DNA of 48,138 bases, from the IMG/VR virus record IMGVR_UViG_3300033151_000069, positions 1 through 48,138 of that record. The stretch is one strand, 5' to 3'. Shown in pieces: positions 1,324-43,981 of this stretch. The stretch's first letter is position 1. Each line of letters opens with the position of its first letter. The position numbers and the translations under genes are program-made. The DNA is from a virus. The notes below the pieces were generated by a model that saw only the letters and a list, made by a program, of their open reading frames with translations, searched no databases and was not told the DNA's origin.

Positions 1324-2539
1324 TTATAATCCTTACTGATTTCTTTGCTCTACTTAATGCTACATACATTAGTCTAGCATATATATTATAGTTGCCTCTG
1401 AATATACTTTTCTGCATATTGCTCTTATCTATCCATACTGTACCAAACTCACTACCTTGTGACTTATGCACAGTAGAAGCAAATGTATAATCCATTGTAT
1501 ATGCTCTCTCTAATGCATAGAACCTACTCCAGGCCTTACCCCGTTCACGGGTGCCAGGTTGACTGTCTACTGCTTCTTGCTTGACAAAGTTTCTAACTCT
1601 ATATGCTCTACCAATTCCAAACACTACAGGATAGATATACCCATCCTTGTCCTGGATGAACTCAATCTCACTTTGATTAAGTAATGCTTGTAGGTTCTGC
1701 TGTAGATACTTCTTGTTTATCTGATTGTTCTGCAACACTAATCTACCTGCTGTGTGTAAACTCATTAAGTCCTTGATGGTAGGTCTAACCTTTGAGTTAA
1801 CCTGCACTGTCTCAAGCAATGAACCTAACTGCATCTCCTGCCCAACATAACTCTGAAGGCCAAACTTAATAGCTAATAGGTCATTATACTCTCCTACTGC
1901 CTCGTTGGTATATGCTAGCATTCTATCACCTAACTGGAAGTCAATCATGTCAACCTCCTGCTGTACATTAGCTGAGTATGGGATTGATAGGTCCTCTGTG
2001 TTATTACCCTCTAGGAAACTCACAAACTTAGTGAACAACTCTACTAGGTCAGGTGACTCTGCTCTGTGTTGAGTAGTCAACTTCCTTGTAGTTGTTGGGT
2101 CAGTTGTTATTGCTACACCTTTAACAGGTGGGAGTTGATATGGATCACCATACAGTGTAAGTGTTATGTGGTCACTCTCAAAGTTAGTTGCATCTTCAAT
2201 CTTACCTGTAAGTTCAAATAGCATCTCCTCAGACATCATACTAAACTCATCTACAATGATGTTAGTGTAGTCAGGCAGGTCTCTGTCCAGTTTGATAGTT
2301 GTATCAACATGGTTTATATCCTCTGCTGACTCATTGATCCCAGGCACCCACCCTAACAGTGAATGAATTGTCTTCAACTCATATAACAATGGATCTGTTA
2401 GTTTGTCTGATAGGATCTTACCTGCCTTGTGGGTAGGTGTTATCACTACAGTTAGTTCAGGATCCATATCCCCTAACTTCTTTATCAGGTCAGTTGACTT
2501 TCCAGTCCCCGCCATTCCAATTACATATTTTATTTTCAT
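1316..2539 (-). CDS. SF1 DNA helicase, Dda/RecD-like
   Basis: The 407-residue protein has the full set of superfamily 1 helicase motifs. Walker A (G-M-A-G-T-G-K-S) is at residues 8-15, and Walker B with D97-E98 is in IIVDEFSMM. Late motifs are STVHKSQGSEF near residue 358 and YVALSRAKK near the C-terminus. The length and the UvrD-like C-terminal motifs match Dda of phage T4 and short RecD2-type helicases, which move 5' to 3' and remodel replication or recombination intermediates. The start overlaps the primase-helicase stop by four bases (ATGA). It probably acts with that protein and the exonuclease. Confidence 0.88.
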   Translation of the reverse strand: MKIKYVIGMAGTGKSTDLIKKLGDMDPELTVVITPTHKAGKILSDKLTDPLLYELKTIHSLLGWVPGINESAEDINHVDTTIKLDRDLPDYTNIIVDEFSMMSEEMLFELTGKIEDATNFESDHITLTLYGDPYQLPPVKGVAITTDPTTTRKLTTQHRAESPDLVELFTKFVSFLEGNNTEDLSIPYSANVQQEVDMIDFQLGDRMLAYTNEAVGEYNDLLAIKFGLQSYVGQEMQLGSLLETVQVNSKVRPTIKDLMSLHTAGRLVLQNNQINKKYLQQNLQALLNQSEIEFIQDKDGYIYPVVFGIGRAYRVRNFVKQEAVDSQPGTRERGKAWSRFYALERAYTMDYTFASTVHKSQGSEFGTVWIDKSNMQKSIFRGNYNIYARLMYVALSRAKKSVRIING

Positions 2540-4923
2540 AGTGCATCCTTACTATCTAATTTATTTTGTCTCATATTGAGTTCCTCTTGTCTTACTTTTG
2601 CTATTATCTCAGGTGGAGTATCCCACTTGAATATTTGCTGGTTGGAATAATTATGTACCAAACCATCATCTTTTAACAGAATCAGAAACTTCTTAAAGTT
2701 TATCTGGTGTTCAATCATATCCTGAAGGCATTGTTTAGCCTCACCTTTACGTCTTGATAGAACTATGTAAGATTTCTTAACTGGTTCACCATTAACTATG
2801 TCTGCTCTTTTGGATGTAATATGAGGCACTTCACCCCAGGTCTCAACATTTAAAAACTCCATTAATGCTGTTTTATCCTGCTTTGTAAAGATGTCTAAAA
2901 GTGCCATCTCTGGTTTTTCCTCTAACCTGTTATATGCTAACCAATCTGAATCTCCTTTATAAACCCAACTAGGTACTCTGTCATACTCATGCTTAGTTAG
3001 AGGTTCAATGTTCTGGGCTAAGTAGGCAGCAAAGGTGAGTACAAACTCTTCTGTTTGAACCCATTTATCTACCAACCTACTATTAATCCAAGCAGGTTCC
3101 ATGACCTTTCGAGTTTTTGCATAAAACAGTCTTGTCTGGTTTGCTTCATCAAAAAGTCTAAAAGTTTTATTAGTTGTAAGCACATAAGTTACACAAGTTG
3201 CCTCTCTACTGTGTGCACCACGCATACGTCTAATTTCTGCCATACCCTCTTCACCTGTTACACTTTTTATATTTGTAGCTACAAGTTTTCTATCACTGTC
3301 TCTAAAGTCACCTAATTCATCTATCATGACTATCCATGCTTGAACAAGGTACTCATTATACTTATCATCTACATTATCTCTAGATAGGGACCTAAGTATT
3401 TGTATATCTTCTAGTGCTCCCATCATGTTGCCCATAATCCGCCCAAAAGGTGTCTTACCTGCACCACCTATACCATCTAGCATCCAAACTACCTTAGAGA
3501 AGTTTTGTGTCTTTAGCCTAGTTGCCATCCACCTCAACCAATAGTCTACCTTAGCATCTGTGCCTAGTATGTTTCTAATGAACTGGAAGAACTCAGGGTC
3601 TACCTCTCCAAACTTCTCCCATGAACTTGGATCATGGTACACCTTAATAGGTTTAGGTGTCTTGTAAGTATTAAAGGTATTACCTAACTTACTTTTGCCC
3701 ATGCCATAAGGCATTCTAATGTTTCTTATAATACTAACTGGGGAAGTCTTCTCAGCCCACTTCAATGCTCGCTTCTTATCTAAGGACTTAATCATATTAA
3801 GGCTGTCAGCAGGCTTAACAATTTGGTATCTTTCATCAGTTAGATTAAACCATAAGTAGGAGCCTGTTGGTGTATCAAAATACACTGCCCAGGATGTCTT
3901 AGTAGTTCCATCAGTTATAGTTAATGTCTCTTCACGCCAATTCTCATTGTACCTCCATATAACTTCACCATTTATCCTTGCTGAACCTGACAATATAGGT
4001 GTCAAGGTCTCCCTAGTTAAGTCATTAGTATGTTTAGGTGGAATACACAAGGAGTTAATCTTGTGTATTGCTTTAGTAAACACATCTTCACTGACAGATG
4101 CATCTGAACCTAACTTTGTAGCAAAAGCATACAAATAGTCATTAGGTTTCTCACTCAAATTTTTAGGTAGGAAGTTAGGTTTAACTTTGTTCCTCCAGTT
4201 GTAAGGTGTAACAGTTGTAAAAAAGTTTTCATTAAGTGTGTCACCTGCAACAAATGCTTCTGTAATGTCACCATACAATCCACCTCCATCTGACTCATAA
4301 GTAACTATTGTTCTTTCCTTCACACCATGTGTATATAATAATGATTGTATATAATATATCAATGCTTGTGGAATTTGGGTAAATTGTGTAGTTTCATCTA
4401 AGTCAGTTACTAGTGTCTTAGTATGATTTCCACTTGATGCTAAGTACAATAATGCCTTACCTCCATACTGGATATCAATCTTGCCTTTCAAACCTTTACC
4501 AAACAATTTGTCTAATGCCTTAGTGTAGTGTCCACTAGTCAATTCCTCACTATCCTCTAAACTAAGAGTTGTTCTAACTATATCATCACCTAACTTAAAC
4601 ACCATATGTCCATCATAAGGATCTTTGTCTGACATTGACATATAAGCACATTTGTCACCTACAATCCTCATTGCTATATTAAACCATTCTGCTACATCAA
4701 AGTCAATACCTACTAAGTTCTTGTCAATGATTGCTGCAAGTATGGGGGCTGTTGTCTCAGGTGATGCAGGTGTATAGTGTTGATTATCAGGATCCCGCCA
4801 TTTAGGTAGTATAACATCACTAGACCCATCAATAACCTTCTTACCTTCAGCATCTCTACTCATAATGCTACCTTTGAGAGGCAGGGTATTAAAGAGTTGA
4901 GTTAGAATATAATCCTTGTTCAT
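2536..4923 (-). CDS. Primase-helicase (AEP-like primase fused to an SF3/D5-type ATPase)
   Basis: The 795-residue protein has two halves. The C-terminal half is a D5/SF3-type helicase, with Walker A G-I-G-G-A-G-K-T near residue 487 and Walker B VMIDELGDF near 533. This class is common next to phage and plasmid origins. The N-terminal half resembles an archaeo-eukaryotic primase. Asp74 and Asp76 lie in GIDFD, a His lies in DGHMVF near residue 106, and a further Asp lies in KIDIQYGG. These match the three catalytic motifs of the fold in order and spacing, but the assignment is by eye. It would prime and unwind phage DNA for the family A polymerase. It is the second gene after the 5208-5236 promoter. 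Confidence 0.85.
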   Translation of the reverse strand: MNKDYILTQLFNTLPLKGSIMSRDAEGKKVIDGSSDVILPKWRDPDNQHYTPASPETTAPILAAIIDKNLVGIDFDVAEWFNIAMRIVGDKCAYMSMSDKDPYDGHMVFKLGDDIVRTTLSLEDSEELTSGHYTKALDKLFGKGLKGKIDIQYGGKALLYLASSGNHTKTLVTDLDETTQFTQIPQALIYYIQSLLYTHGVKERTIVTYESDGGGLYGDITEAFVAGDTLNENFFTTVTPYNWRNKVKPNFLPKNLSEKPNDYLYAFATKLGSDASVSEDVFTKAIHKINSLCIPPKHTNDLTRETLTPILSGSARINGEVIWRYNENWREETLTITDGTTKTSWAVYFDTPTGSYLWFNLTDERYQIVKPADSLNMIKSLDKKRALKWAEKTSPVSIIRNIRMPYGMGKSKLGNTFNTYKTPKPIKVYHDPSSWEKFGEVDPEFFQFIRNILGTDAKVDYWLRWMATRLKTQNFSKVVWMLDGIGGAGKTPFGRIMGNMMGALEDIQILRSLSRDNVDDKYNEYLVQAWIVMIDELGDFRDSDRKLVATNIKSVTGEEGMAEIRRMRGAHSREATCVTYVLTTNKTFRLFDEANQTRLFYAKTRKVMEPAWINSRLVDKWVQTEEFVLTFAAYLAQNIEPLTKHEYDRVPSWVYKGDSDWLAYNRLEEKPEMALLDIFTKQDKTALMEFLNVETWGEVPHITSKRADIVNGEPVKKSYIVLSRRKGEAKQCLQDMIEHQINFKKFLILLKDDGLVHNYSNQQIFKWDTPPEIIAKVRQEELNMRQNKLDSKDAL

Positions 4924-9437: not shown

Positions 9438-9531
9438 TGTAGTTCCTTATATCTATAGTGTGTTTGGCCTAATGGAGGCGTGATGGTCTGTCTAAAACAA
9501 TGGTATGGTTGATAATTTTATCATGACCATG

Positions 9532-9565
9532 AGAGAACCCAAGGTGAGGACTGCTTAGGTTCTCT
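9532..9565. other. Hairpin, possible terminator of the 9839-10123 unit
   Basis: An 8-base inverted repeat AGAGAACC (9532-9539) and GGTTCTCT (9558-9565) encloses 18 bases. No clear T-run follows on either strand. It lies in the 5' untranslated leader of 8811-9437 and downstream of 9839-10123. It could be a weak terminator or an RNA stability element. Confidence 0.5.
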
Positions 9566-9592
9566 TATAGTCATATTGTTATAATGTGATGT

Positions 9593-9621
9593 ATTATAAC
9601 ATAAAATTGTGTCAATGTCAA
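9593..9621 (-). promoter_or_regulatory. Perfect sigma-70 promoter for 8811-9437
   Basis: On the minus strand, TTGACA (9616-9621) is followed by 17 bases and TATAAT (9593-9598), with an extended TGT. The -10 is one arm of a TGTTATAAT / ATTATAACA inverted repeat with a 7-base gap (plus strand about 9578-9602). This again suggests a repressor site overlapping the promoter. Confidence 0.85.
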
Positions 9622-9838
9622 CCGGAAATGGGTTGAAATTTGTTATTTATTTCAGGGGTTAGTGAAATGGTATAACACAATTATAACAAAATATATAAAA
9701 ATACATAATTAATACGAAGGCTGTATAGTATATAATATAGGTACAGTTCATATATAATTATTATTTATGTATTAATGTAATAATATAATAAAACAATATA
9801 CAATGGTATAATACACAATTTTCCTTAGAAATGCTCAG
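9622..9838. other. AT-rich intergenic stretch
   Basis: This stretch has no gene-length reading frame. A small dyad ATTTCA / TGAAAT lies near 9652-9671, with scattered TTATAACA and TATAAT-like words. It contains the leader upstream of the 9616 promoter and the 3' flank of the 94-residue gene. I see nothing else. Confidence 0.6.
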
Positions 9839-10123
9839 TTAGCACTCATAGTACCTCCTTGTAGCAACATAAGATAATAATCCCATAGCATTGGTCTCAA
9901 ATGGTGTTTCAAATATTTCAATAAAATCCTCATCACAGAAATATTTTTCAGGTGCATCCAAGATCCTAGCAACCTCATAGGCCCACTGCATTCTGAAATA
10001 CATTCCTAGGTGTCCAATTTTATCACCTGGGTCATCCTCTAGCAATTTCTCAATGTCATAGAGATCCTGCGTATTACGGGTCAGCGTTTTGTGTACATGG
10101 TCAAGTTGTTCAATTACAGTCAT
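9839..10123 (-). CDS. Hypothetical acidic protein, 94 aa
   Basis: The 94-residue protein is acidic and alpha-helical by eye. The first 30 residues form a Leu-heptad-like helix (L-D-H-V-H-K-T-L, L-Y-D-I-E-K-L-L). The C-terminal half contains E-D-F-I-E-I-F-E-T-P-F-E-T. No family is recognised. It is a single-gene unit with two tandem consensus promoters upstream and is surrounded by long noncoding AT-rich DNA, next to the skew-flip region. A regulator or replication accessory role is possible. Confidence 0.7.
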   Translation of the reverse strand: MTVIEQLDHVHKTLTRNTQDLYDIEKLLEDDPGDKIGHLGMYFRMQWAYEVARILDAPEKYFCDEDFIEIFETPFETNAMGLLSYVATRRYYEC

Positions 10124-10189
10124 ATTTATGTCCTCACATATTGTATTTATATCATGTATAACATTTGGTGTATCAAATTGTTATAATGA

Positions 10190-10218
10190 ATTATATCACA
10201 ATTTTAAAACAATGTCAA
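10190..10218 (-). promoter_or_regulatory. Perfect sigma-70 promoter, proximal, for 9839-10123
   Basis: On the minus strand, TTGACA (10213-10218) is followed by 17 bases and TATAAT (10190-10195), with an extended TGA. The -10 lies in a near-palindrome TGTTATAA, TGAA, TTATATCA with the same 4-base gap as the dyad at 8694-8715. Confidence 0.82.
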
Positions 10219-10318
10219 CCAATTTGACATCAAATTTCAAAATTTGATTTATTAACAATTGCAACATTATGAACACATATTGAATATGTGTTATTACAAT
10301 GTTTAATTGTTATATTGT

Positions 10319-10347
10319 ATTATATTGTAATTATAACAATATGTCAA
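10319..10347 (-). promoter_or_regulatory. Consensus sigma-70 promoter, distal tandem copy
   Basis: On the minus strand, TTGACA (10342-10347) is followed by 17 bases and TATAAT (10319-10324). There is no extended TG. It lies about 130 bases upstream of the proximal promoter and faces the same way, so transcripts would carry a longer AT-rich leader. Confidence 0.75.
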
Positions 10348-10800
10348 CCAATTAATCATTGAATTTATTGATGATCCCATCAGTTGAACTGATGATGATA
10401 TGTGACATTTTATATAATGTATATAAATATCATAATATCCTTAATATGAGGTTAATGTTATAACATTGTTATAATAATGTTATATATGTGTTACAATATG
10501 TTACAAATCAACGTGAAGGCATTATTATACATTATGTGATACATTGTATGATTAATGTGTTACAATGTGTTTATGCACCGGTTATGTGACATTGTAGGGG
10601 TATTATGATATATTGTGTATAATGATATGATGATTGATATGATATTGATTAATATGATATATTGGTATATGTAATGATATGGTATGTGCTTTGCTTATAA
10701 TTGTGATGTATGTCAATGTGATATGCTAGGATAGTGTGTTGTTATGTTGTGATATGTGTTTAGGTTATATATATAATTGATGTTTCTCCTTCTCTTCAGC
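10348..10800. other. Gene-free AT-rich region, G/T-rich plus strand with GATATG-type repeats
   Basis: There is no credible reading frame. Repeated words include GATAT, TGATATG, TGTTATAACA and TTACAATGTG. Hand counting 10561-10740 gives about 43 G against 9 C on the plus strand, a strong skew. Together with the reversed skew on the other side of the GC-rich island, this resembles an origin or a boundary of replication. The iteron-like words are degenerate. Confidence 0.6.
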
Positions 10801-10810
10801 TTAAGTATAT

Positions 10811-10868
10811 GGCTACCCCCGGTGGGTGCAGGGGGGTGTCAAGGCATGCCCCCCGGGGCGGATGGGCC
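10811..10868. other. GC-rich island with two mutually exclusive hairpins
   Basis: This is the only long GC-rich stretch in an AT-rich gene-free region. ACCCCC (10815-10820) can pair with GGGGGT (10832-10837). Alternatively GGGGGG (10831-10836) can pair with CCCCCC (10849-10854). The two pairings compete for the same G-run. The island sits at the point where the strand composition reverses. It could be a terminator, a packaging-recognition site or part of an origin. Confidence 0.6.
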
Positions 10869-11026
10869 AACCAGGAACAATTACATAATATAATTTTTCA
10901 AAATTTCAGCCCACCAATTAAGCAACCCAACAGCCCCCCTACCAAACACAAAACCACCCAAAACCCAGACCTTGTTTCACGTGAAACATTCATATTATTA
11001 AATATCAACCACCAAACCACAGAAGA
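10869..11026. other. Gene-free C/A-rich, G-poor tract carrying parS
   Basis: By hand count, 10921-11040 has about 10 G and 43 C, the mirror image of the tract at 10561-10740. A plus-strand open frame crosses it, but the frame has no ribosome site and a biased, low-complexity composition, so I do not call a gene. The tract ends at the terminase stop. Confidence 0.6.
10973..10988. promoter_or_regulatory. Perfect parS-type palindrome (ParB-binding centromere site)
   Basis: The 16 bases TGTTTCACGTGAAACA are a perfect palindrome identical to the chromosomal parS consensus recognised by ParB/Spo0J across many bacteria. By simple counting, an exact 16-base match is expected about 0.00001 times in a random 48-kb sequence. 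No ParB or ParA gene is visible in the window, so host ParB is the likely ligand. The site lies between the GC-rich island and the 3' end of the terminase gene. Confidence 0.85.
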
Positions 11027-12640
11027 CTACACAGCATGCCCCTGAGGTCTTCTTCGACCGCTCCCATAAGTAACAGTATATGGGTCCTTTAGTGCTGGCA
11101 TAGTGATGTAGATAACAAGGTCGGCCCAGTGTGACCACTCATCATGCTTAGGTTCTTTCTTCCATTGTTCCAACTTTGGGTCCCATTCTCGGCTGTAGTT
11201 GGCGAAGGTAGCTATGCAATATGGACATGCTTGGTCAACTTCAACATAGCTCTTCTCTATTTCGCTACGGACTTGGTTGATAGCTACTAGTTTGTTGGTA
11301 GGGCGTTCAAGCATAATGACAGTGAAGCCTTCTTCCCTATAGGCTTGTTCCGCTGTTTGTAGGTCGACTTGACTACGCTTAGTTCCGTCATGTGGGAGGA
11401 AGAGTTGGGGTAAGGAGGCTCCGATGGAGGAGGTGAACTGCTTGATCTTCATGGCGTAGTGCTTGACGCCTTGGTTTGAGTTGCCATATTCCCACACGAT
11501 AGTGCGCCGCTTGTTGTAGAACTGTATTAGGCCTACAGTGTTGGTGTCATTTACACCTAGGTCCATGAAGCAGTATAGGGGTAGTTGCGGGTTGTAGAGG
11601 TGAGGTACATGGTCAGGGGAGTCGACTGCACCGATGAGGCCGAAGTCCTTCCAGGCATTGTGCCAGTAAGCACCCATTCGTGAGGCCTTGAAGGCTTCCT
11701 CAGCAGTAAGTGGGTATTCCTGGTAGATCTTAGTCTTGAGCTCTCTGTATTGAGAGATCCACCAGTTCTTCTGCTCTCGGGTGAAGGTCCACCCATTAAG
11801 CTCATGTTCTGAGAAGTAGTCTAGTGATTCTTGAGTGGAAGATTGATCTATAGCCAGGTTACAGTCTGGGTCCTCATGCCAAGACAGGAACACAGGGAGG
11901 AAGTCTTTAGGTGCTCTCTCCTCAGGCTTAACACCTTCTGCCTCATCCCACATATATCTAAACTCATTTGTTCCTTCAGCAGTTGACTCAATAATCGCGG
12001 CGTTACCCTGAGCAATGGCTTGTAGTGATCCAGTCTTAGTCTCTTCAGCACGCTTAGGGTTTTCATTGGCTATTTTACCAAACTCTGAGATATGTAGGGC
12101 TTGTAGTGTCTGGGATCTAAATGATACACCAATTAGAACTTGTGAGTTGTTAGTGAACTCCACAGTGTCTGTGTTATCTTTAACTAGTGCAAGCATAAGG
12201 AAGCCTTTCACATTCTCATCCAGTGTGCTCCAAAGCAGTTTAGTCCTAGTTAGTAGGATTGAAGCCTCACGCTTACCTTGTGCCATCAGACCACCTGTAT
12301 AGTCAGGAATTGTTATGGCAGTGTCAAAGAACATGATTAGCCATAAGGTTGAGATACCTTGCTGCCTAGACTTGAGGATGATAAGGCGTGGGTGTTGAAG
12401 GAAGTACCAGTAGACTATAACCTGTGCCCTGTTAGGAGTGAAGTGAATACGCTGACCCCATTTGTCTACAATAGTGTATAGATTGACAAGACGCCACAGT
12501 CTGGAGGGTAGGTAGTTCTCAACCATGTCCTTGTCACTGGCAGGCTCAGTCTCAAACAAATAAGGGTCCATAGTAGGAAATCTCTGTAGGAACTCAGTCC
12601 TGGGTATGCTGAGGTTCCATGGAATTAGTTTACGTTCCAT
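11027..12640 (-). CDS. terL: Terminase large subunit
   Basis: The 537-residue protein is the packaging motor. The ATPase domain has a Walker A-like S-R-Q-Q-G-I-S-T at residues 91-98 and a Walker B region A-L-H-I-S-E-F near 181-187. After it comes a coupling-type motif in I-I-E-S-T-A-E-G. The nuclease domain starts near residue 357 with F-M-D-L-G-V-N-D, continues with L-P-H-D-G-T, and ends with W-S-H-W-A-D. These are the acidic metal-binding residues of the RNase H fold. It translocates DNA through the portal and cuts concatemers. It follows the small subunit gene by one base. Unusually, it is transcribed away from the rest of the virion genes. Confidence 0.93.
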   Translation of the reverse strand: MERKLIPWNLSIPRTEFLQRFPTMDPYLFETEPASDKDMVENYLPSRLWRLVNLYTIVDKWGQRIHFTPNRAQVIVYWYFLQHPRLIILKSRQQGISTLWLIMFFDTAITIPDYTGGLMAQGKREASILLTRTKLLWSTLDENVKGFLMLALVKDNTDTVEFTNNSQVLIGVSFRSQTLQALHISEFGKIANENPKRAEETKTGSLQAIAQGNAAIIESTAEGTNEFRYMWDEAEGVKPEERAPKDFLPVFLSWHEDPDCNLAIDQSSTQESLDYFSEHELNGWTFTREQKNWWISQYRELKTKIYQEYPLTAEEAFKASRMGAYWHNAWKDFGLIGAVDSPDHVPHLYNPQLPLYCFMDLGVNDTNTVGLIQFYNKRRTIVWEYGNSNQGVKHYAMKIKQFTSSIGASLPQLFLPHDGTKRSQVDLQTAEQAYREEGFTVIMLERPTNKLVAINQVRSEIEKSYVEVDQACPYCIATFANYSREWDPKLEQWKKEPKHDEWSHWADLVIYITMPALKDPYTVTYGSGRRRPQGHAV

Positions 12641-14156: not shown

Positions 14157-15317
14157 ATGAGAGGTAATGAAACAGCGTTCTTGGATTACAACTCTGACCT
14201 CATCCGTAAAGGTTGGGTAAAAGAAGGACTAATTCAAGATGCGGCAAAGTCATTCTGGGCAGCATACACAGGATTCTCAGCGGATTCAGTTGTCTACCAG
14301 AAAAACATGACAAATGTGGCCGAGGGTAACTTAATGATCTTTGACTATGATGGTTATTTGACAGGTGAAATGGCACTTGACAGAGAACAAGCATGGGGTA
14401 AAGGTGAAGGCAAGAGAAAATTCTCAACTGCACTCAAAATCCGTAGAGGGCGTATCCCAGTTAACAATGGTGATAAGTTCAAAGGTAAAGAGATTGGTGA
14501 CTTGAGTATCACAGAACATGGTGACTCAATGAGCAAATTGTCTGACTTATGGGTAAGACATAAAGATCAATGTCACTTTGACTCAGTACAAGGTAGACTG
14601 GACAACCTAGATAACTCACACATCTATCGTCCAAATGATAGAGCATCAGTTGCTGACTTGCTAGCTACGGATATTATGTCTTACAGCTATATTCTTACGC
14701 TTACAGAGAACATGATTGAGGGTGATAGATTTGCGAAAGGTTCAAAGAGAATGCCTCTTAAGCCATTCAGAATCGCAGATGGTGAAGTTGTATGGAACTT
14801 GCTTCTAGATAACACAGCATTCTTCCAGTTGAAGAAAGACACACGTTTCCAAGACTTAGTTGCTCAAGGTGATGTAAGAGGTGCTAACAACTTCTTGTTC
14901 CGAGGTCAACCAGTTAAGATCGGTCAGTTGATGGTATCAGTTGCTCCAGTATTCTTCGGTACATCTACCGACAGACGTGCAGGTAAGACTAAACCAGAAA
15001 TCACTGGATTCCGTAAACTTGATGAAGATGGTCTTTACACAGGTGAAAAAGGTTTTGGAGCTACAGGTAAAAAGATTGCTGCGAGATCAGTTCTTCTTGG
15101 TGCAGGTGCTATGCAATATGGTATGGGTATGGAACCTGATTATAACTTGCAGTTCTCACAAGATCACAAGATCACTTCTGAGTCACTATTAGAAGTATGG
15201 TTCAACGTTCAGAAAACACAGCTTCTTCCAGAGACTGTTGATTATGATGAAGCCCGCATTGGTAATATGGACTACGGTGTTATCGCTGTTGATACATATG
15301 CCGGTGTTGGAAAGTAA
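14157..15317 (+). CDS. Major capsid protein
   Basis: The 386-residue protein is read as the capsid subunit from its length, its place after the scaffold gene and its family resemblance. It begins M-R-G-N-E-T-A-F-L and contains patterns such as S-D-L-W-V-R-H-K-D-Q and R-L-D-N-L-D-N-S-H-I-Y-R-P-N. I associate these with DUF4043-type capsid proteins of podoviruses. Codon choice is less AT-biased than in small genes, as expected for abundant proteins. An AAGGAATTATT stretch precedes the ATG. The family label is by memory and less certain than the role. Confidence 0.82.
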   Translation: MRGNETAFLDYNSDLIRKGWVKEGLIQDAAKSFWAAYTGFSADSVVYQKNMTNVAEGNLMIFDYDGYLTGEMALDREQAWGKGEGKRKFSTALKIRRGRIPVNNGDKFKGKEIGDLSITEHGDSMSKLSDLWVRHKDQCHFDSVQGRLDNLDNSHIYRPNDRASVADLLATDIMSYSYILTLTENMIEGDRFAKGSKRMPLKPFRIADGEVVWNLLLDNTAFFQLKKDTRFQDLVAQGDVRGANNFLFRGQPVKIGQLMVSVAPVFFGTSTDRRAGKTKPEITGFRKLDEDGLYTGEKGFGATGKKIAARSVLLGAGAMQYGMGMEPDYNLQFSQDHKITSESLLEVWFNVQKTQLLPETVDYDEARIGNMDYGVIAVDTYAGVGK

Positions 15318-38631: not shown

Positions 38632-39186
38632 TTATCTCCTTGTTAATGCTAGGAACTCTTCTTTAACATCTGCATCTAAGAAGTTTCCTACCAATTTACT
38701 TGTCACAGTTTTACAACCATGATGCTTGATACCTCTGCTTGATACACAGAAGTGTTCTGCTTCAATAACAACTCCTACACCTAAAGGACTTAATTCCTTC
38801 ATCATAGTTTCTGCTATCTGTGCTGTTATACGCTCTTGAACCTGCAATCTTCTTGCAAAGTGTTCAACCAACCTATTCATCTTACTCAAACCAACAATCT
38901 TTCCATTAGGAATGTATGCTACATGAGCAACACCAACTATGGGTGCAAGGTGGTGAGCACAATGACTATATAGAGGAATGTTCATCTCTACAACCATCTG
39001 GTCAGTATCACTGTCCTCAAAGGTTGTGAAGGTAAATGAGTCTCTGTATCCTGCTCCCCAGGACTCAACCCAAGCCTTAATCACCCTCTTAGGTGTATCA
39101 GATGTATGTGAGTCAGGTTTGCCTTTAGTGATAAAGTTCACTAATGTCTGTACTGCATCTCGTGCTTCTTGTTCTGTAGTTATCAT
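38632..39186 (-). CDS. folE: GTP cyclohydrolase I (FolE)
   Basis: The 184-residue enzyme makes 7,8-dihydroneopterin triphosphate from GTP, the first step toward 7-deazaguanine. Zinc ligands are C76 and H79 in Y-S-H-C-A-H-H and C147 in A-E-H-F-C-V. The family motif Y-I-P-N-G-K-I-V-G-L-S-K is intact, and R-R-L-Q-V-Q-E follows. The usual C-E-H-H reads C-A-H-H here, a substitution outside the zinc ligands. It overlaps the downstream-facing neighbour by four bases, and all genes of this pathway lie within 3.8 kb. A phage copy raises the supply of precursor above the host's folate need. Confidence 0.95.
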   Translation of the reverse strand: MITTEQEARDAVQTLVNFITKGKPDSHTSDTPKRVIKAWVESWGAGYRDSFTFTTFEDSDTDQMVVEMNIPLYSHCAHHLAPIVGVAHVAYIPNGKIVGLSKMNRLVEHFARRLQVQERITAQIAETMMKELSPLGVGVVIEAEHFCVSSRGIKHHGCKTVTSKLVGNFLDADVKEEFLALTRR

Positions 39187-39377
39187 GCTTTTTCCTTATA
39201 AAATAGATATATAACTCCCGCTGATGCCAGCGTATGAGTCCTTGAGTGTTCTAAATGAAAGTCTGTGAAGATACTCTTGCTTTGAAGAGCCTCATTAATA
39301 CTACTGGCAGTTTTTTCATCAATAGACCTAAAGAGGCTTACAACTTCCCTCACATACTGTTCTTTTGTCACAACCAT
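39183..39377 (-). CDS. Hypothetical protein between queC and folE
   Basis: The 64-residue protein is helical (V-T-K-E-Q-Y-V-R-E-V-V-S-L-F-R-S-I) and ends with V-I-Y-L-F-Y-K-E-K-A. It overlaps folE by four bases and queC by ten, so translation is coupled to the deazaguanine genes. It is not part of any deazaguanine family I know. It might be a helper for DNA transglycosylation or a filler gene; the sequence gives no hint. Confidence 0.7.
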   Translation of the reverse strand: MVVTKEQYVREVVSLFRSIDEKTASSINEALQSKSIFTDFHLEHSRTHTLASAGVIYLFYKEKA

Positions 39378-40060
39378 TCTCCTCTTTCTTGTAGAAGTTT
39401 CATAGCAAAGTTAGGATCTACATATAGAGTAGGATCGCCAAGGTATCTCAGTGCCCAAATACGCTCAACACAGGTTGAACATCTTCCACAGTGATACTTT
39501 CCACCTTTGTAACAACTATAGGTATCTACCCAAGGCACACCTAACTTAGCACCTAACTCAGCAATTTCTTGCTTAGTGATTTGAGTGAAAGGTGCTCTGA
39601 TATGAACCATACCACCTGTACCCATTAGGATTGCTCCATTCATCTGTGCTATAAAATCTGCTCTACAATCAGGATATACTGCATGGTCACCTGCATGGTT
39701 ACCTAGAACAATATAAGCTAAACCTAATGACTCTGCTAGGCCTGCTGCAACTGACAACATGATACCATTTCTAAAAGGTACAACTGTTGCCTTCATAGTT
39801 TCTTCTTCATAGTGACCTTCTGGAATTGCATGGTCAGGGTTTAGAAGTGCACTGTTAAAATGTTTAAAGGCTGACTCTAAGTCAATAACAATATGAGGAA
39901 TGTTTAACTTCTCACAGGTTAACCTTGCATGCTTAATCTCTGAGTCATTATGCTTTGACCCATAGTTAAAACTAACTGCTTGGCCCACTCTGTGTAACTC
40001 ATGGTATAGAACTGTTGTACTGTCCATACCTCCACTTAGTATAACTAAACTATCCTTCAT
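39368..40060 (-). CDS. queC: 7-cyano-7-deazaguanine (preQ0) synthase QueC
   Basis: The 230-residue enzyme converts carboxy-deazaguanine to preQ0 using ATP and ammonia. The PP-loop S-G-G-M-D-S is at residues 9-14, and Y-P-D-C-R is near 129-133. The zinc site is C183, C191, C194 and C197 in S-C-Y-K-G-G-K-Y-H-C-G-R-C-S-T-C. These are all the elements of the family, in a length close to bacterial QueC. It overlaps dpdA by 11 bases. Confidence 0.96.
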   Translation of the reverse strand: MKDSLVILSGGMDSTTVLYHELHRVGQAVSFNYGSKHNDSEIKHARLTCEKLNIPHIVIDLESAFKHFNSALLNPDHAIPEGHYEEETMKATVVPFRNGIMLSVAAGLAESLGLAYIVLGNHAGDHAVYPDCRADFIAQMNGAILMGTGGMVHIRAPFTQITKQEIAELGAKLGVPWVDTYSCYKGGKYHCGRCSTCVERIWALRYLGDPTLYVDPNFAMKLLQERGEWL

Positions 40061-40787
40061 ACTGTACTCCTTTTAGTAACTTGCTTACAAACTCAATGTT
40101 ATGAGCAATCTCTTCTTTCATCAGGTCTACTTCTTCACTAAAGTTGACTGAGGTTGTATCTTTCCGCTTCATCTCATTAACTTTAATGCCTAGGTGACCT
40201 TGCCATACACAGGCTGAACTATCCCAAGAACTAATGTGCTTCTTGAATGGGTGAAGCATACCAATCTCATAGATGCTGTCTGTGCCTCCAAGCAAGTGTA
40301 TCTTCTTGAATGGCATTCCTTCATCTAAGTGATCTCTGAACAGTTCATATCTTGCACCTGGTGAGTGTCTATAGTCAATATGTTCCTCTGATACACCTAC
40401 AAACTTGATACGGTTATCATACATCATATCCTTGAACTGTGCAGATGTCTTAGGTATGGTCATAACATCATAACCTGCATCTAAAAACTCATCCATACCA
40501 TCTAATGTTCCATCAGGACAGATTAGACAGTTAGCATCCACAAGTATTGCTGCTTCAAGCATTGCCTTAGGTGATAAACAATAACCTAACTCAAAGAATG
40601 AATTGTCTAATAACTTGTAGCTAGGGGTTGAGTAAAATGCCACTCTATAAGCCTCATCATTAAGCACAAGGTGAGTTAACACCATGTCCATTCCACCATT
40701 TAGAATGCTAAGATCTGCAATAGTGTTAGTTGGTCCTATATGAATTGCCCTGATAGGTTCTTCAAAGTCAAATTGTAATTGTGTCAT
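40050..40787 (-). CDS. dpdA: DpdA-type DNA guanine transglycosylase
   Basis: The 245-residue protein belongs to the TGT-like superfamily, in the short phage DpdA form. It contains L-L-D-N-S-F-F-E-L-G (Asp61), C-P-D-G-T (Asp92) and S-S-W-D-S-S (Asp189). Asp92 and Asp189 are candidates for the base-exchange acid and nucleophile. I-H-L-L-G-G fits the base-binding loop of the barrel. It would exchange guanine in DNA for preQ0 or preQ1. It follows a 32-codon membrane-peptide gene (overlap of four bases) and precedes queC. The family assignment rests on these motifs and the surrounding pathway; the inserted base is an inference. Confidence 0.85.
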   Translation of the reverse strand: MTQLQFDFEEPIRAIHIGPTNTIADLSILNGGMDMVLTHLVLNDEAYRVAFYSTPSYKLLDNSFFELGYCLSPKAMLEAAILVDANCLICPDGTLDGMDEFLDAGYDVMTIPKTSAQFKDMMYDNRIKFVGVSEEHIDYRHSPGARYELFRDHLDEGMPFKKIHLLGGTDSIYEIGMLHPFKKHISSWDSSACVWQGHLGIKVNEMKRKDTTSVNFSEEVDLMKEEIAHNIEFVSKLLKGVQYEG

Positions 40788-40882
40788 TCTGAGGCCTTTA
40801 AAATAAAGTATAAACTCACACCACCAATTAGTAGTGTTGTGAGAGTTGCTGTAACTACAGATATAAGTACTATACTACACAT
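40784..40882 (-). CDS. 32-residue membrane peptide inside the deazaguanine operon
   Basis: The frame fits exactly between queE and dpdA. Its ATG shares a base with the queE stop (TAATG), and its TGA overlaps the dpdA start (ATGA). The queE end GAGGTGAAG provides a ribosome site. The protein is M-C-S-I, then hydrophobic V-L-I-S-V-V-T-A-T-L-T-T-L-L-I-G-G-V, then a short Y-F-I-L-K-A-S-E tail, a single membrane span. The exact overlaps at both ends and hydrophobic pattern make a random open frame unlikely. The role is unknown. Confidence 0.68.
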   Translation of the reverse strand: MCSIVLISVVTATLTTLLIGGVSLYFILKASE

Positions 40883-41487
40883 TACTTCACCTCTATGTGA
40901 GTATGTAGCCTAGCGCTATAGTGAATGTTATATTCCAAACATAAAGCAATTGCTCTATCTACATTCTCTTTGATGGGTGTTCCATCTGGTTGAGTTACTG
41001 CTTGTAGTGTGATGTTAGTTTGGAAGTACATTGACTCAATTCTCTCTTCAAGTAAAGCATCATGCACTCCACCTACTAGAAGTTTAACCTCACCTGCAGG
41101 AGAAGGTCTCTCAATGTGCTTACCTTTAGGTGATACACATACCCAGTCAGCACCTGCCCAGTGTTTTGCTTTGTAACCATTAGTTTCAATAGCAACCCTA
41201 TGACCTTCTTCTTGTAATCTCTGGATGAGAGGTCTAAGATCTTGCATTGATGGTTCACCACCTGTGAGGATAACCCACTCAACTTTGATATTGAATACTA
41301 ACTCTTCAATGTCAACTTCAGTCCATACATCCCACTTAGTGTCACAGAATGTACAGTCTCTATTACAACCACCCATTCTGATGAAGTGTGCAGGTGTACC
41401 TTGCATATAACCTTCACCTTGGATACTAGTGAATTGCTCTACTACATTATACTTTGTGCCCGTAGGGGCCTTTTTGTCTTTACTCAT
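40882..41487 (-). CDS. queE: 7-carboxy-7-deazaguanine synthase QueE
   Basis: This is 201 residues from the ATG at 41487. The longer frame starting at 41565 has no ribosome site, while this start overlaps the queD stop by eight bases. Radical-SAM cysteines are C41, C45 and C48 in G-G-C-N-R-D-C-T-F-C-D. The preceding Q-G-E-G and the later L-T-G-G-E-P are as in QueE. The enzyme converts carboxy-tetrahydropterin to carboxy-deazaguanine. Length and motifs match the family well. Confidence 0.95.
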   Translation of the reverse strand: MSKDKKAPTGTKYNVVEQFTSIQGEGYMQGTPAHFIRMGGCNRDCTFCDTKWDVWTEVDIEELVFNIKVEWVILTGGEPSMQDLRPLIQRLQEEGHRVAIETNGYKAKHWAGADWVCVSPKGKHIERPSPAGEVKLLVGGVHDALLEERIESMYFQTNITLQAVTQPDGTPIKENVDRAIALCLEYNIHYSARLHTHIEVK

Positions 41488-41989
41488 TGTGTGCTCCAAA
41501 TGATTTATGTCTTCCACCAGGCTGAACCTTGATTTCCGGAATGTTATAGTATGTAATATCTTCACCTACATACATCTTAGGTCTTGATGCTGTTGCCCAA
41601 CCTGTCTTAGTTTCTTGTAATCTAACTTCAACTACAGGCAGGTTTAACTCTATACACGCTCTAAAGATGTGGTGTGCCATGTTCTCTGCTGTTGGGTTAT
41701 AGTCAACCTCAATCATTCTCAAAGGAACAACTTGTAGCATTGCTTTATAGTGGTTAACTAACACATCTTCCACATGGAACATATAGGAGTGATCCCATGC
41801 TTCAAACAAGTGGCTAAGTCTGTCTTTAACCTCACCAAAGTCCATTACCATGCCGTCTGGGTTTAGGTGTTCTGACTCTAACACCACCTCTGCTAAATAA
41901 CTATGCCCATGGATAGAGTGACACTTTTGACTATAACTAGTCACCAATCTATGTGCTGTCTCAAATTTAAACTGTTTTGTAGCTAACAT
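41480..41989 (-). CDS. queD: 6-carboxy-tetrahydropterin synthase QueD
   Basis: The 169-residue enzyme has the T-fold signature. Zinc ligands are H13 in F-E-T-A-H-R-L and H27 and H29 in C-H-S-I-H-G-H-S, with catalytic C23. V-M-D-F-G-E-V, W-D-H-S and Y-N-P-T-A-E-N follow in family order. It makes carboxy-tetrahydropterin from dihydroneopterin triphosphate for QueE. Its start shares a base with the queF stop, and its stop overlaps queE. Confidence 0.95.
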   Translation of the reverse strand: MLATKQFKFETAHRLVTSYSQKCHSIHGHSYLAEVVLESEHLNPDGMVMDFGEVKDRLSHLFEAWDHSYMFHVEDVLVNHYKAMLQVVPLRMIEVDYNPTAENMAHHIFRACIELNLPVVEVRLQETKTGWATASRPKMYVGEDITYYNIPEIKVQPGGRHKSFGAHNE

Positions 41990-42411
41990 TATATCTGCCT
42001 TTCACTGTCTATTTCAACTACTGTTGTCACATTACCTCTTGGTGCAGGTGACATTGTTACTTTCAACATCTTAGGTTTCAGTTTCTTGTTGAACCACTTG
42101 TAGATATCTTGTGTAACATCCTCATGACTAATGTGTTGGTTATCATAGTGATTGATAAACAACTTAGCACTCTTTAGTTCCATTGTATGCTTGTTTGGTA
42201 CATATTTGATAGTGACAGTACCTGTATCCCTGTAACCGCTAAGTGGGCATAATGCTGTCCACTCAGGAAACTCCATTGTAACCAATGCAGCAAACTTGTA
42301 ACCTACTTTCCAGGCAACTAAGTCAGTTTTAGGATTGAAATTTGCTACAATTTCTTTCCCATACTTGTGACCATCTTTGTCACTTCTTTCTTTTCCAAAC
42401 TCTGTACTCAT
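41989..42411 (-). CDS. queF: preQ0 reductase QueF (makes preQ1)
   Basis: The 140-residue protein has the unimodular QueF layout. The nucleophile C55 lies in T-A-L-C-P-L, with D62 in Y-R-D-T seven residues later. The motif M-E-L-K-S-A-K-L (E78) and the downstream H-I-S-H-E-D-V follow. QueF uses NADPH to reduce the nitrile of preQ0 to the aminomethyl of preQ1. QueF-like amidinotransferases share the Cys, so an amidine product cannot be excluded from sequence alone. The presence of QueF, without other modifying enzymes that I recognise, points to preQ1 in phage DNA. Confidence 0.9.
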   Translation of the reverse strand: MSTEFGKERSDKDGHKYGKEIVANFNPKTDLVAWKVGYKFAALVTMEFPEWTALCPLSGYRDTGTVTIKYVPNKHTMELKSAKLFINHYDNQHISHEDVTQDIYKWFNKKLKPKMLKVTMSPAPRGNVTTVVEIDSERQI

Positions 42412-42665
42412 CCTAGAACCTTTCTTCTTGCTAACTCTTCTTTTGCATAGTACAAGTTCATGTGAGCCTTACCCACAAGTTCATACCTGATATCATAGTC
42501 AACTACATCACTGCCTCTAATCAAGTCCATGATTGTCTTTACATCTTCTTTAGCATACTTGACTCTTTGTTTTACAGTCCTGAGTGACTCTTGACAACTT
42601 GTGTCTGTTGTTGCTATACCTCTTCTTTTTTGTCTTTTCTTTCTACCTAGTACTTTCTTACTCAT
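42408..42665 (-). CDS. Small basic protein, 85 aa
   Basis: This starts at the ATG at 42665, with GGGAGG at six bases; a longer frame from 42707 lacks a good site. The first 20 residues are very basic (K-K-V-L-G-R-K-K-R-Q-K-R-R-G), like a nucleic-acid-binding tail. The rest is a helical hairpin (Y-A-K-E-D-V-K-T-I-M-D). It overlaps the PRTase-like gene by eight bases and queF by four. It might bind DNA or RNA. The function is unknown. Confidence 0.72.
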   Translation of the reverse strand: MSKKVLGRKKRQKRRGIATTDTSCQESLRTVKQRVKYAKEDVKTIMDLIRGSDVVDYDIRYELVGKAHMNLYYAKEELARRKVLG

Positions 42666-43020
42666 AATTTGCCTCCCAGCTAAATGTAATATAGTCCTCA
42701 GTGTCAACTATCAAACCTACAAAGTCTGCTAAGCCTAAACTGGACTCCTTCTGAACTAACACTGCTCTGTGGACGTTAGGCCCAACAGATAGAACAGTGT
42801 TACTAGAATCCTCAATGTCATCTACAAACAAATCCTCAGGTGTTAACCACACTAAGGCTTGTTTATTGTCTACAATTACTACAGGCACATCTAAATGATA
42901 TGCCAACTTCTGTGCTATAGCTAACCCACCTCTGCCTATGGTTACAACTCTCTTGTAACCATCTGAGGCTATTTGTGCCTTTAAGAGTTGGTATGCTTTT
43001 GCTTCATTAATTTTCATTCG
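42658..43020 (-). CDS. Phosphoribosyltransferase-like protein
   Basis: This is 120 residues from the ATG at 43020, chosen for its upstream AAGGATTCCGA. It has the type I PRTase layout: V-V-T-I-G-R-G-G-L-A near residue 25, and the PRPP loop at 63-74, L-F-V-D-D-I-E-D-S-S-N-T. The enzyme would bind PRPP and a base, as nucleotide salvage enzymes do, but the fold is small and the substrate is unknown. The D-D-I-E-D motif, instead of the usual pattern with D-T-G, suggests altered or lost PRPP binding. It lies near queF, so a link to deazaguanine handling can be imagined. Confidence 0.72.
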   Translation of the reverse strand, partial: RMKINEAKAYQLLKAQIASDGYKRVVTIGRGGLAIAQKLAYHLDVPVVIVDNKQALVWLTPEDLFVDDIEDSSNTVLSVGPNVHRAVLVQKESSLGLADFVGLIVDTEDYITFSWEANYE

Positions 43021-43981
43021 GAATCCTTGGATCACCTTCTGGGTAAGTCTCCATAACACCTGGGCCATCTATCAATACATCTTCCTCAGGTGGTTGCCAT
43101 AATGTTAGTTCCCCCATATCATTAAGTTGGTTCATGTTCACCAACTGCATTGTTACTACTGCTTCTGCTCTGGACTTACCAGTTCTACTGAACTCGCCAA
43201 CAACAACTTCCCATAGTGCATCTTTTGTAGTTAAACCATCTAGAAGTTTGATTGCCTTCTTAGGCCCAATGCCTTTAACACCTTCAATACCATCAGCAGT
43301 ATCACCTTCCAAACATTGTTGGAATGGAAACTTAAATGCATCTGCATCTGTGAATGATACCCACTTCATAGGTATGTTATACTTTGATGACTCATAGTAG
43401 TTTAGGTGTAAACCAGCACAACCTCTAAGTACATCTTTATCAACTGCACACAGTACAGCCTCAGTACCTAGTTGTTTCTTTCTCCATACAACATAGTCAT
43501 CAGCTTCAATCTCTGAGTGTATCATAGCAACATCATACTCATCTACTGCCATTTTCTTTAGGTCTCTTAGTCCCACAGGATATCTAGTTGACTTTCTGTT
43601 TGACTTATACCCAGGATCTACATCATATCTAAAGTTTTTACCTGAGGTGAAGTGTAGTTCAACTGAAGCACAACCTGTTAAGTATACCAAGTTTGCTACT
43701 TTACCTTTAACTGCTTCAAAGGCTTTGTCTAACTCAATTCTCCAAATGCTATTTGTTTCAGCATCATAGTTATCATGCCCAGTTAGTTTGTCATGCTCAC
43801 CTGGGGCATAATGCCAACCTGGCAGGATCTCTTCTGGAAACTCATACACTGATGCTACTGAGTACACAATAGTATCAGCATCTATGATAAGTATCTTCTT
43901 GTTTAGTTCAGCTGGTTTAGGTGTCCCAGGTATTGTGCTGTGGTCTTTTCCTACTGCTTCTTCTTCTTTAAAAAGTGCCAT
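43007..43981 (-). CDS. 5'-3' exonuclease / flap endonuclease
   Basis: The 324-residue protein is a T5-type 5' nuclease. It has D34 and D36 in I-I-D-A-D and acidic residues in A-V-D-K-D. The helix-hairpin-helix G-V-K-G-I-G-P-K-K-A binds DNA. It would remove RNA primers and flaps next to the DNA polymerase gene and open ends during recombination. The first seven residues are almost the same as in the protein of 46348-46851 (M-A-L-F-K-E). It overlaps the next gene by 14 bases. Confidence 0.87.
   Translation of the reverse strand: MALFKEEEAVGKDHSTIPGTPKPAELNKKILIIDADTIVYSVASVYEFPEEILPGWHYAPGEHDKLTGHDNYDAETNSIWRIELDKAFEAVKGKVANLVYLTGCASVELHFTSGKNFRYDVDPGYKSNRKSTRYPVGLRDLKKMAVDEYDVAMIHSEIEADDYVVWRKKQLGTEAVLCAVDKDVLRGCAGLHLNYYESSKYNIPMKWVSFTDADAFKFPFQQCLEGDTADGIEGVKGIGPKKAIKLLDGLTTKDALWEVVVGEFSRTGKSRAEAVVTMQLVNMNQLNDMGELTLWQPPEEDVLIDGPGVMETYPEGDPRIPNEN

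Follow-up and report, generated by a model that had tools for sequence, protein, structure and literature searches.

What does an abrupt reversal of strand composition mark when it falls in a non-coding stretch of phage DNA? The question is raised by a 903 bp gap (10124-11026) that separates terL, the gene for the large terminase subunit (11027-12640, minus strand), from genes that we call early on the basis of gene order. The window examined here comprises an entire viral record (48,138 bases), and all positions refer to it. Its minus strand also carries replication genes (a primase-helicase, a family A polymerase, a ligase and helicases), and the capsid gene lies at 14157-15317. The first-pass annotation had described the gap as an origin-plus-partition locus, and we asked which parts of that description hold.

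A local strand-composition reversal beside terL

The base counts originally given for the two flanks were exact: positions 10561-10740 hold 43 G and 9 C, and positions 10921-11040 hold 10 G and 43 C, on either side of a GC-rich island (10811-10868) in which 45 of 58 bases are G or C. Maximal-scoring segments placed the island, and with it the site of skew reversal, at 10816-10868 (79% G+C); together with base counts they delimited a GT-rich (keto) plus strand to its left (10383-10785) and a GT-rich minus strand to its right (10867-11069, where the plus strand is AC-rich), each running 5′ to 3′ toward the island. When the same window sizes were slid over the whole window, this flip was the strongest found, with a score of 1.38 against 0.78 for the runner-up. 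Along the plus strand G first exceeds C and then C exceeds G, which is the sign of a bacterial terminus and the opposite of that of an origin.

The two hairpins proposed for the island did not withstand comparison with dinucleotide shuffles, being no more stable than these (z = -0.42 and -0.17). The region had also been called gene-free; the gap does lie between two minus-strand genes, but a plus-strand ATG frame of 78 codons (10809-11045) crosses the island. The gap likely contains no genes. A search for structured RNA gave no Rfam match above gathering threshold in the window, and within 9438-11100 a single chance-like match, to mir-633 (24 bits, cut-off 90). An intrinsic terminator for terL, that is, a GC hairpin and a T run on the terL strand, was absent from the minus strand of 9438-11100 (fold z -0.17).

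At an origin, the reversal had been expected to appear as an inflection in the skew of the full genome. The cumulative skew of the window does have its minimum near 9.5-10.5 kb, close to the gap, but its course is roughly what gene orientation alone predicts, because nearly all window genes have a positive GC skew on their sense strand. Skew at four-fold sites showed no consistent change at the site in the window, PH1, KF-1, Amaethon or VPMS1. As four-fold sites show no common change and the skew tracks gene direction, the flip is a local feature, and we rejected a genome-scale replication skew. The minus-strand terL breaks the skew rule, with a sense skew of -0.08 and a four-fold skew of -0.51; its G+C content (0.43-0.49 per 500 bp) is above that of its surroundings and its sense skew is opposite, and it is perhaps a recent acquisition.

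Beyond the site lie three sigma-70 promoters of perfect consensus (12 of 12 positions) that point toward the early genes, at 10319-10347 (TTGACA-17-TATAAT), 10190-10218 and 9593-9621, all on the minus strand; the window holds five perfect promoters in total. The iteron-like GATATG words reported earlier are real: TGATATG occurs six times on the plus strand of the gap and never on the minus strand, with five copies at 10623-10756 and a sixth at 10396. A short direct-repeat array beside AT-rich DNA, the arrangement of an iteron-type origin, is thus found both here, as TGATATG, and as arrays in relatives.

A perfect parS 16-mer (10973-10988), the sole copy in the window, stands 38 bp beyond the terL stop. 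No match to ParB_N (PF02195) was found in the record, which is classed as linear and may be incomplete, and parS was found in none of the terL-anchored relatives (L002-L088). Among 208 loci it occurred only in the window itself (L001) and in loci that came from the parS scan; a scan of the parS loci for relatives of the clade gave only weak terL matches, in L122 and L118. Bare parS sites were seen in at least 120 stretches of viral contigs, compared with 10 for a palindrome of matched composition, an excess of at least 12-fold. ParB_N was matched in 4 of 39 records over 15 kb among the parS loci L089-L208, and phages may borrow ParB from their hosts.

Elsewhere in the window, positions 38632-43068 hold a queuosine/7-deazaguanine cluster, with QueC-, QueD- and QueE-like genes, GTP cyclohydrolases and a phosphoribosyl transferase, which suggests that the phage DNA is modified.

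A conserved element at the late/early border of related phages

The phage is podovirus-like, and the named phages closest to it are PH1, VPMS1, Amaethon, KF-1 and two Manatee Spring podoviruses. Initial scans for relatives with single proteins found one or none; the set anchored on terL comprised 80 viral loci and five named phages, with the terL stop present in 82. A close relative, L002 (terL 72% identical; L009 and L314 are the same contig), keeps the order of the window past terL, namely a G-rich stretch, a GC island and an AC-rich stretch.

At the border between late and early genes, the relatives have an AT-rich palindrome, a GC-rich core of constant place and orientation with a consensus of about CCGGACTGGCCCTAGCCC, and tandem repeats specific to each phage. 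The core was counted over the 77 of 83 sequences, the window among them, that extend 150 bp or more past terL. A strict core pattern occurred on the terL-sense strand of 26 of the 77 and on the opposite strand of one, and an iterated core matrix scored above 10 bits in 46 of 77, with reverse strands reaching up to 13.5 bits and shuffles up to 9.1. Above 15 bits, the first kilobase past terL held 50 matches over 82 loci (66 kb), and the 534 kb outside it held 2; because these loci had also served to train the matrix, the contrast in place outweighs the number itself. The window and L002 keep the layout with diverged cores that fall below threshold (8.6 and 8.8 bits; typical relatives 15-34). 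In the window the place of the clade's GC core is 10845-10870 on the minus strand, and an AT-rich imperfect palindrome (10879-10895) stands where relatives have AATAAATTTATTAA palindromes. Judged by eye and uncounted, an AT palindrome such as AATAAATTTATTA lies some 45-65 bp before the core in most rows.

Tandem arrays, with a repeat sequence that varies between phages, follow the core in 29 of 47 loci and precede it in 21 of 47, the window and L009 having been added to this count by hand although below threshold. Array bases make up 13.6% of the 900 bp after terL versus 0.63% elsewhere (72 loci; near-duplicates and short loci were dropped from this count, as from the A+C side and terL-anchored flip counts below). 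Repeats of the GATAATGATTATC type, which we take to resemble the Fur box, occur in the arrays after the core of L008, L021, L047, L052 and L075. Arrays of the kind seen in the post-terL gap of PH1 (L209) apparently follow an 8-bp step (periods 16, 24, 32 and 40), not a helical repeat. In L055 a core scoring 32 bits is found 3.6 kb past terL, with further ORFs in between.

In two relatives the terminase genes are inverted relative to the site. In L221 (5162-7223) and L261 (504-2577) the early genes and the terS-terL block lie on opposite strands, terS being the small open frame before terL, named from its place only; in L221, whose terL is 36% identical, the capsid gene is inverted together with the block. 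The non-coding site is still found at the border of the early genes in both, with its polarity unchanged. That it keeps this border despite the inversion argues against its being the terminator of terL and ties the site to the early side.

The literature that we searched on the group, the named phages and repeats near terminase describes no origin for this phage group. The KF-1 genome announcement gives neither an origin nor genome ends (PMC3569283), and the part of a soft-rot phage review considered here gives no origin for Kafunavirus (PMC8472413).

Recurrence of the flip among relatives

The composition switch recurs at the same place in many related bacterial viruses and marks a conserved non-coding control site. 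In 36 of 69 loci, where 6.2 were expected, the 700 bp after terL contained the largest G-to-C flip; the opposite flip fell in the same zone in 20 of 69 (again 6.2 expected), and non-coding composition therefore explains part of the signal. A+C exceeded G+T on the repeat side in 31 of 36 loci, compared with 18 of 27 for a control zone placed 1.3 kb farther along. Strong flips were rarer: scores of at least 0.8 were reached in 13 of 41 terL-anchored loci, and scores of at least 1.2 by L279 (a sister of L221), the contig of L002, and L309. Among 40 loci anchored on the primase, only L221 (1.55) and the window (1.39) exceeded 0.83; in this set the G-to-C flip was the larger of the two in 20 of 40 loci, and in 7 of 16 its distance from a core was no more than 400 bp.

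A primase-helicase as candidate initiator

The proposed initiator is a primase-helicase encoded at 2536-4923 on the minus strand, with a putative PrimPol-like N part and a DUF5906/SF3-type helicase. DUF5906 was matched by the window protein and by all 25 aligned relatives; the Prim-Pol family PF09250 was matched by 7 of the 25 and not by the window protein, and a D-x-D motif is invariant in the alignment. A sequence search of the PDB returned only a ferrochelatase (E 0.91), and a fold search was needed. Profile comparison by hhalign with NrS-1 polymerase gave 98.8%. The AlphaFold2 model is modest (mean pLDDT 67, with a poor N part). For its C half the best Foldseek match was the C-terminal region of NrS-1 (E 7e-16), and comparison of the two folds gave Z 24.5 over 368 residues at 8.4 Å; the next matches were the SaPI5 primase-helicase (Z 17.5) and then other SF3 origin helicases. 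The protein thus has the C-terminal SF3-like helicase of an NrS-1-type PrimPol. Helicase and primase activities are reported for the SaPI and P4 replication proteins (PMC7145576). Relatives of the primase occurred in no plasmid record and at two loci in cellular genomes, which does not help to separate an origin from a packaging site.

According to published accounts, the template sites from which NrS-1 polymerase begins synthesis de novo are TTTGGTTA or GTG (PMC7102993, PMC8718748), and the 8-nt site is described in NrS-1 as two copies, not as an array (PMC7102993). In the window, GTG occurs 15 times on the left flank against 6.3 expected; no enrichment was found on the right flank, nor in L002 or L221. 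The word test did not support GTG or TTTGG as priming words shared among these sites, and we rejected them. Inverted words common to both flanks were likewise rejected, with nothing beyond composition in 6 of 7 loci; the exception was a marginal 6-mer signal between the window flanks (p = 0.01).

Competing explanations of the site

The main rival to an origin is a packaging start (pac or cos), in which terminase would cut at the GC core and its small subunit would bind the repeats. Cos sites are rich in G+C and have repeats nearby, and with the last late gene on one side and the first early gene on the other, the site is placed like the genome end of T7. Terminase genes adjoin it in most relatives, as they adjoin a pac or cos site; the strict core pattern is present in 10 of 23 records, once in each; and 30 of 80 contigs break off in the kilobase after terL compared with 1 of 80 in the kilobase before it. 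These contig ends, however, are scattered on either side of the core and share no single point, and of the 6 long contigs checked, 2 show self-overlap at the break, in one case within tandem repeats; repeats therefore account for some of the ends. The sequence at the ends of L064, L214 and L218 is presumably a random-amplification primer, which makes those ends laboratory artefacts. Overall, the contig-end counts and the six far ends favour assembly breaks in repeats over physical genome ends at the core. Inversion of the terminase block also leaves the site beside the early genes, though a packaging site could behave in the same way, and on balance we regard packaging as unlikely while still deserving serious consideration.

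Regulation alone would make the palindromes and repeats operators of the early promoters, with composition drifting in the absence of coding constraint. The three perfect promoters past the site would fit, as would the over-representation of flips of the opposite sign; nevertheless, the core is kept across very diverged phages, beyond what operators usually show, the arrays are dense, and the flip prefers one polarity (36 versus 20), all of which leaves a purely regulatory role quite improbable. We give very little credence to a replication terminus or a barrier to forks: in sign the local flip would suit a bacterial terminus, but four-fold-site skew does not match it over the genome, and the site stands beside early genes and contains iterons. 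Hardly any weight can likewise be given to the combined origin-plus-partition locus of the first-pass annotation, as the parS site, perfect and close to terL though it is, and of a kind well over-represented in viral contigs, is accompanied by no ParB_N match in the record and is shared by none of the terL-anchored relatives.

A proposed replication origin and its relation to known systems

The best reading, which we hold with modest confidence, is that the gap is a phage replication origin of the iteron type and a diverged member of a clade-wide element. The origin part of the earlier call thus survives as the best explanation, on grounds other than genome-scale skew, hairpins or parS. The conserved core with its iteron arrays, the place at the early border despite inversion of terL, the recurrence of the flip and the SF3-type primase-helicase together make an origin somewhat probable.

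In the mechanism that we propose, the element would consist of the AT-rich palindrome, the GC-rich core and phage-specific iterons, adjoining the early promoters. The primase-helicase would recognise the repeats, open the AT-rich DNA next to the core and prime synthesis in the outward direction, and the GT-rich strands would serve as templates for new strands growing away from the core on both sides. The skew reversal would then arise because both flanks carry GT-rich strands running 5′ to 3′ toward the core. This polarity fits, but the GTG test gave a mixed outcome and the shared-word test gave no support beyond the marginal signal in the window, and the role of the GT-rich strands as start templates is therefore offered as a proposal. 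A stronger version, a primer-free bidirectional origin at which a PrimPol-helicase starts strands de novo on GT-rich templates flanking the GC core, with leading strands outward and the flip as the footprint of opposed start zones, is speculative and in our view decidedly unlikely. If the origin reading is true, a conserved core, interchangeable iterons and one primase-helicase would make origin choice and de novo initiation directly testable, and would provide a marker by which to locate origins in uncultured relatives.

Kafunavirus KF-1, Dickeya phage Amaethon, Vibrio phage VPMS1 and Pseudoalteromonas phage PH1 share with the window homologous terL, capsid protein and primase and a non-coding post-terL gap with a GC-rich island; they differ in having a milder skew, with terL identities of about 40-44%, and the window has 7-deazaguanine genes in addition. 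In T7 the order is terL, site, early promoters and early genes, and the same order is found in the window; unlike a T7-type genome end, the clade is without sign of fixed ends, and its terminase block is inverted in two relatives. NrS-1 polymerase and the window protein have the same helicase fold, but NrS-1 is without another polymerase, whereas the window phage has one of family A, and the NrS-1 start word GTG shows no general enrichment at sites of the window type. The origins of SaPIs and phage P4 contain iterons recognised by a primase-helicase initiator, and they resemble the window in having repeats beside AT-rich DNA and an SF3-type helicase with primase function. Relative to the SaPI and P4 layout, the window clade appears to be distinguished by a conserved GC core between palindrome and repeats, by repeats that are specific to each phage, and by a strong strand asymmetry.
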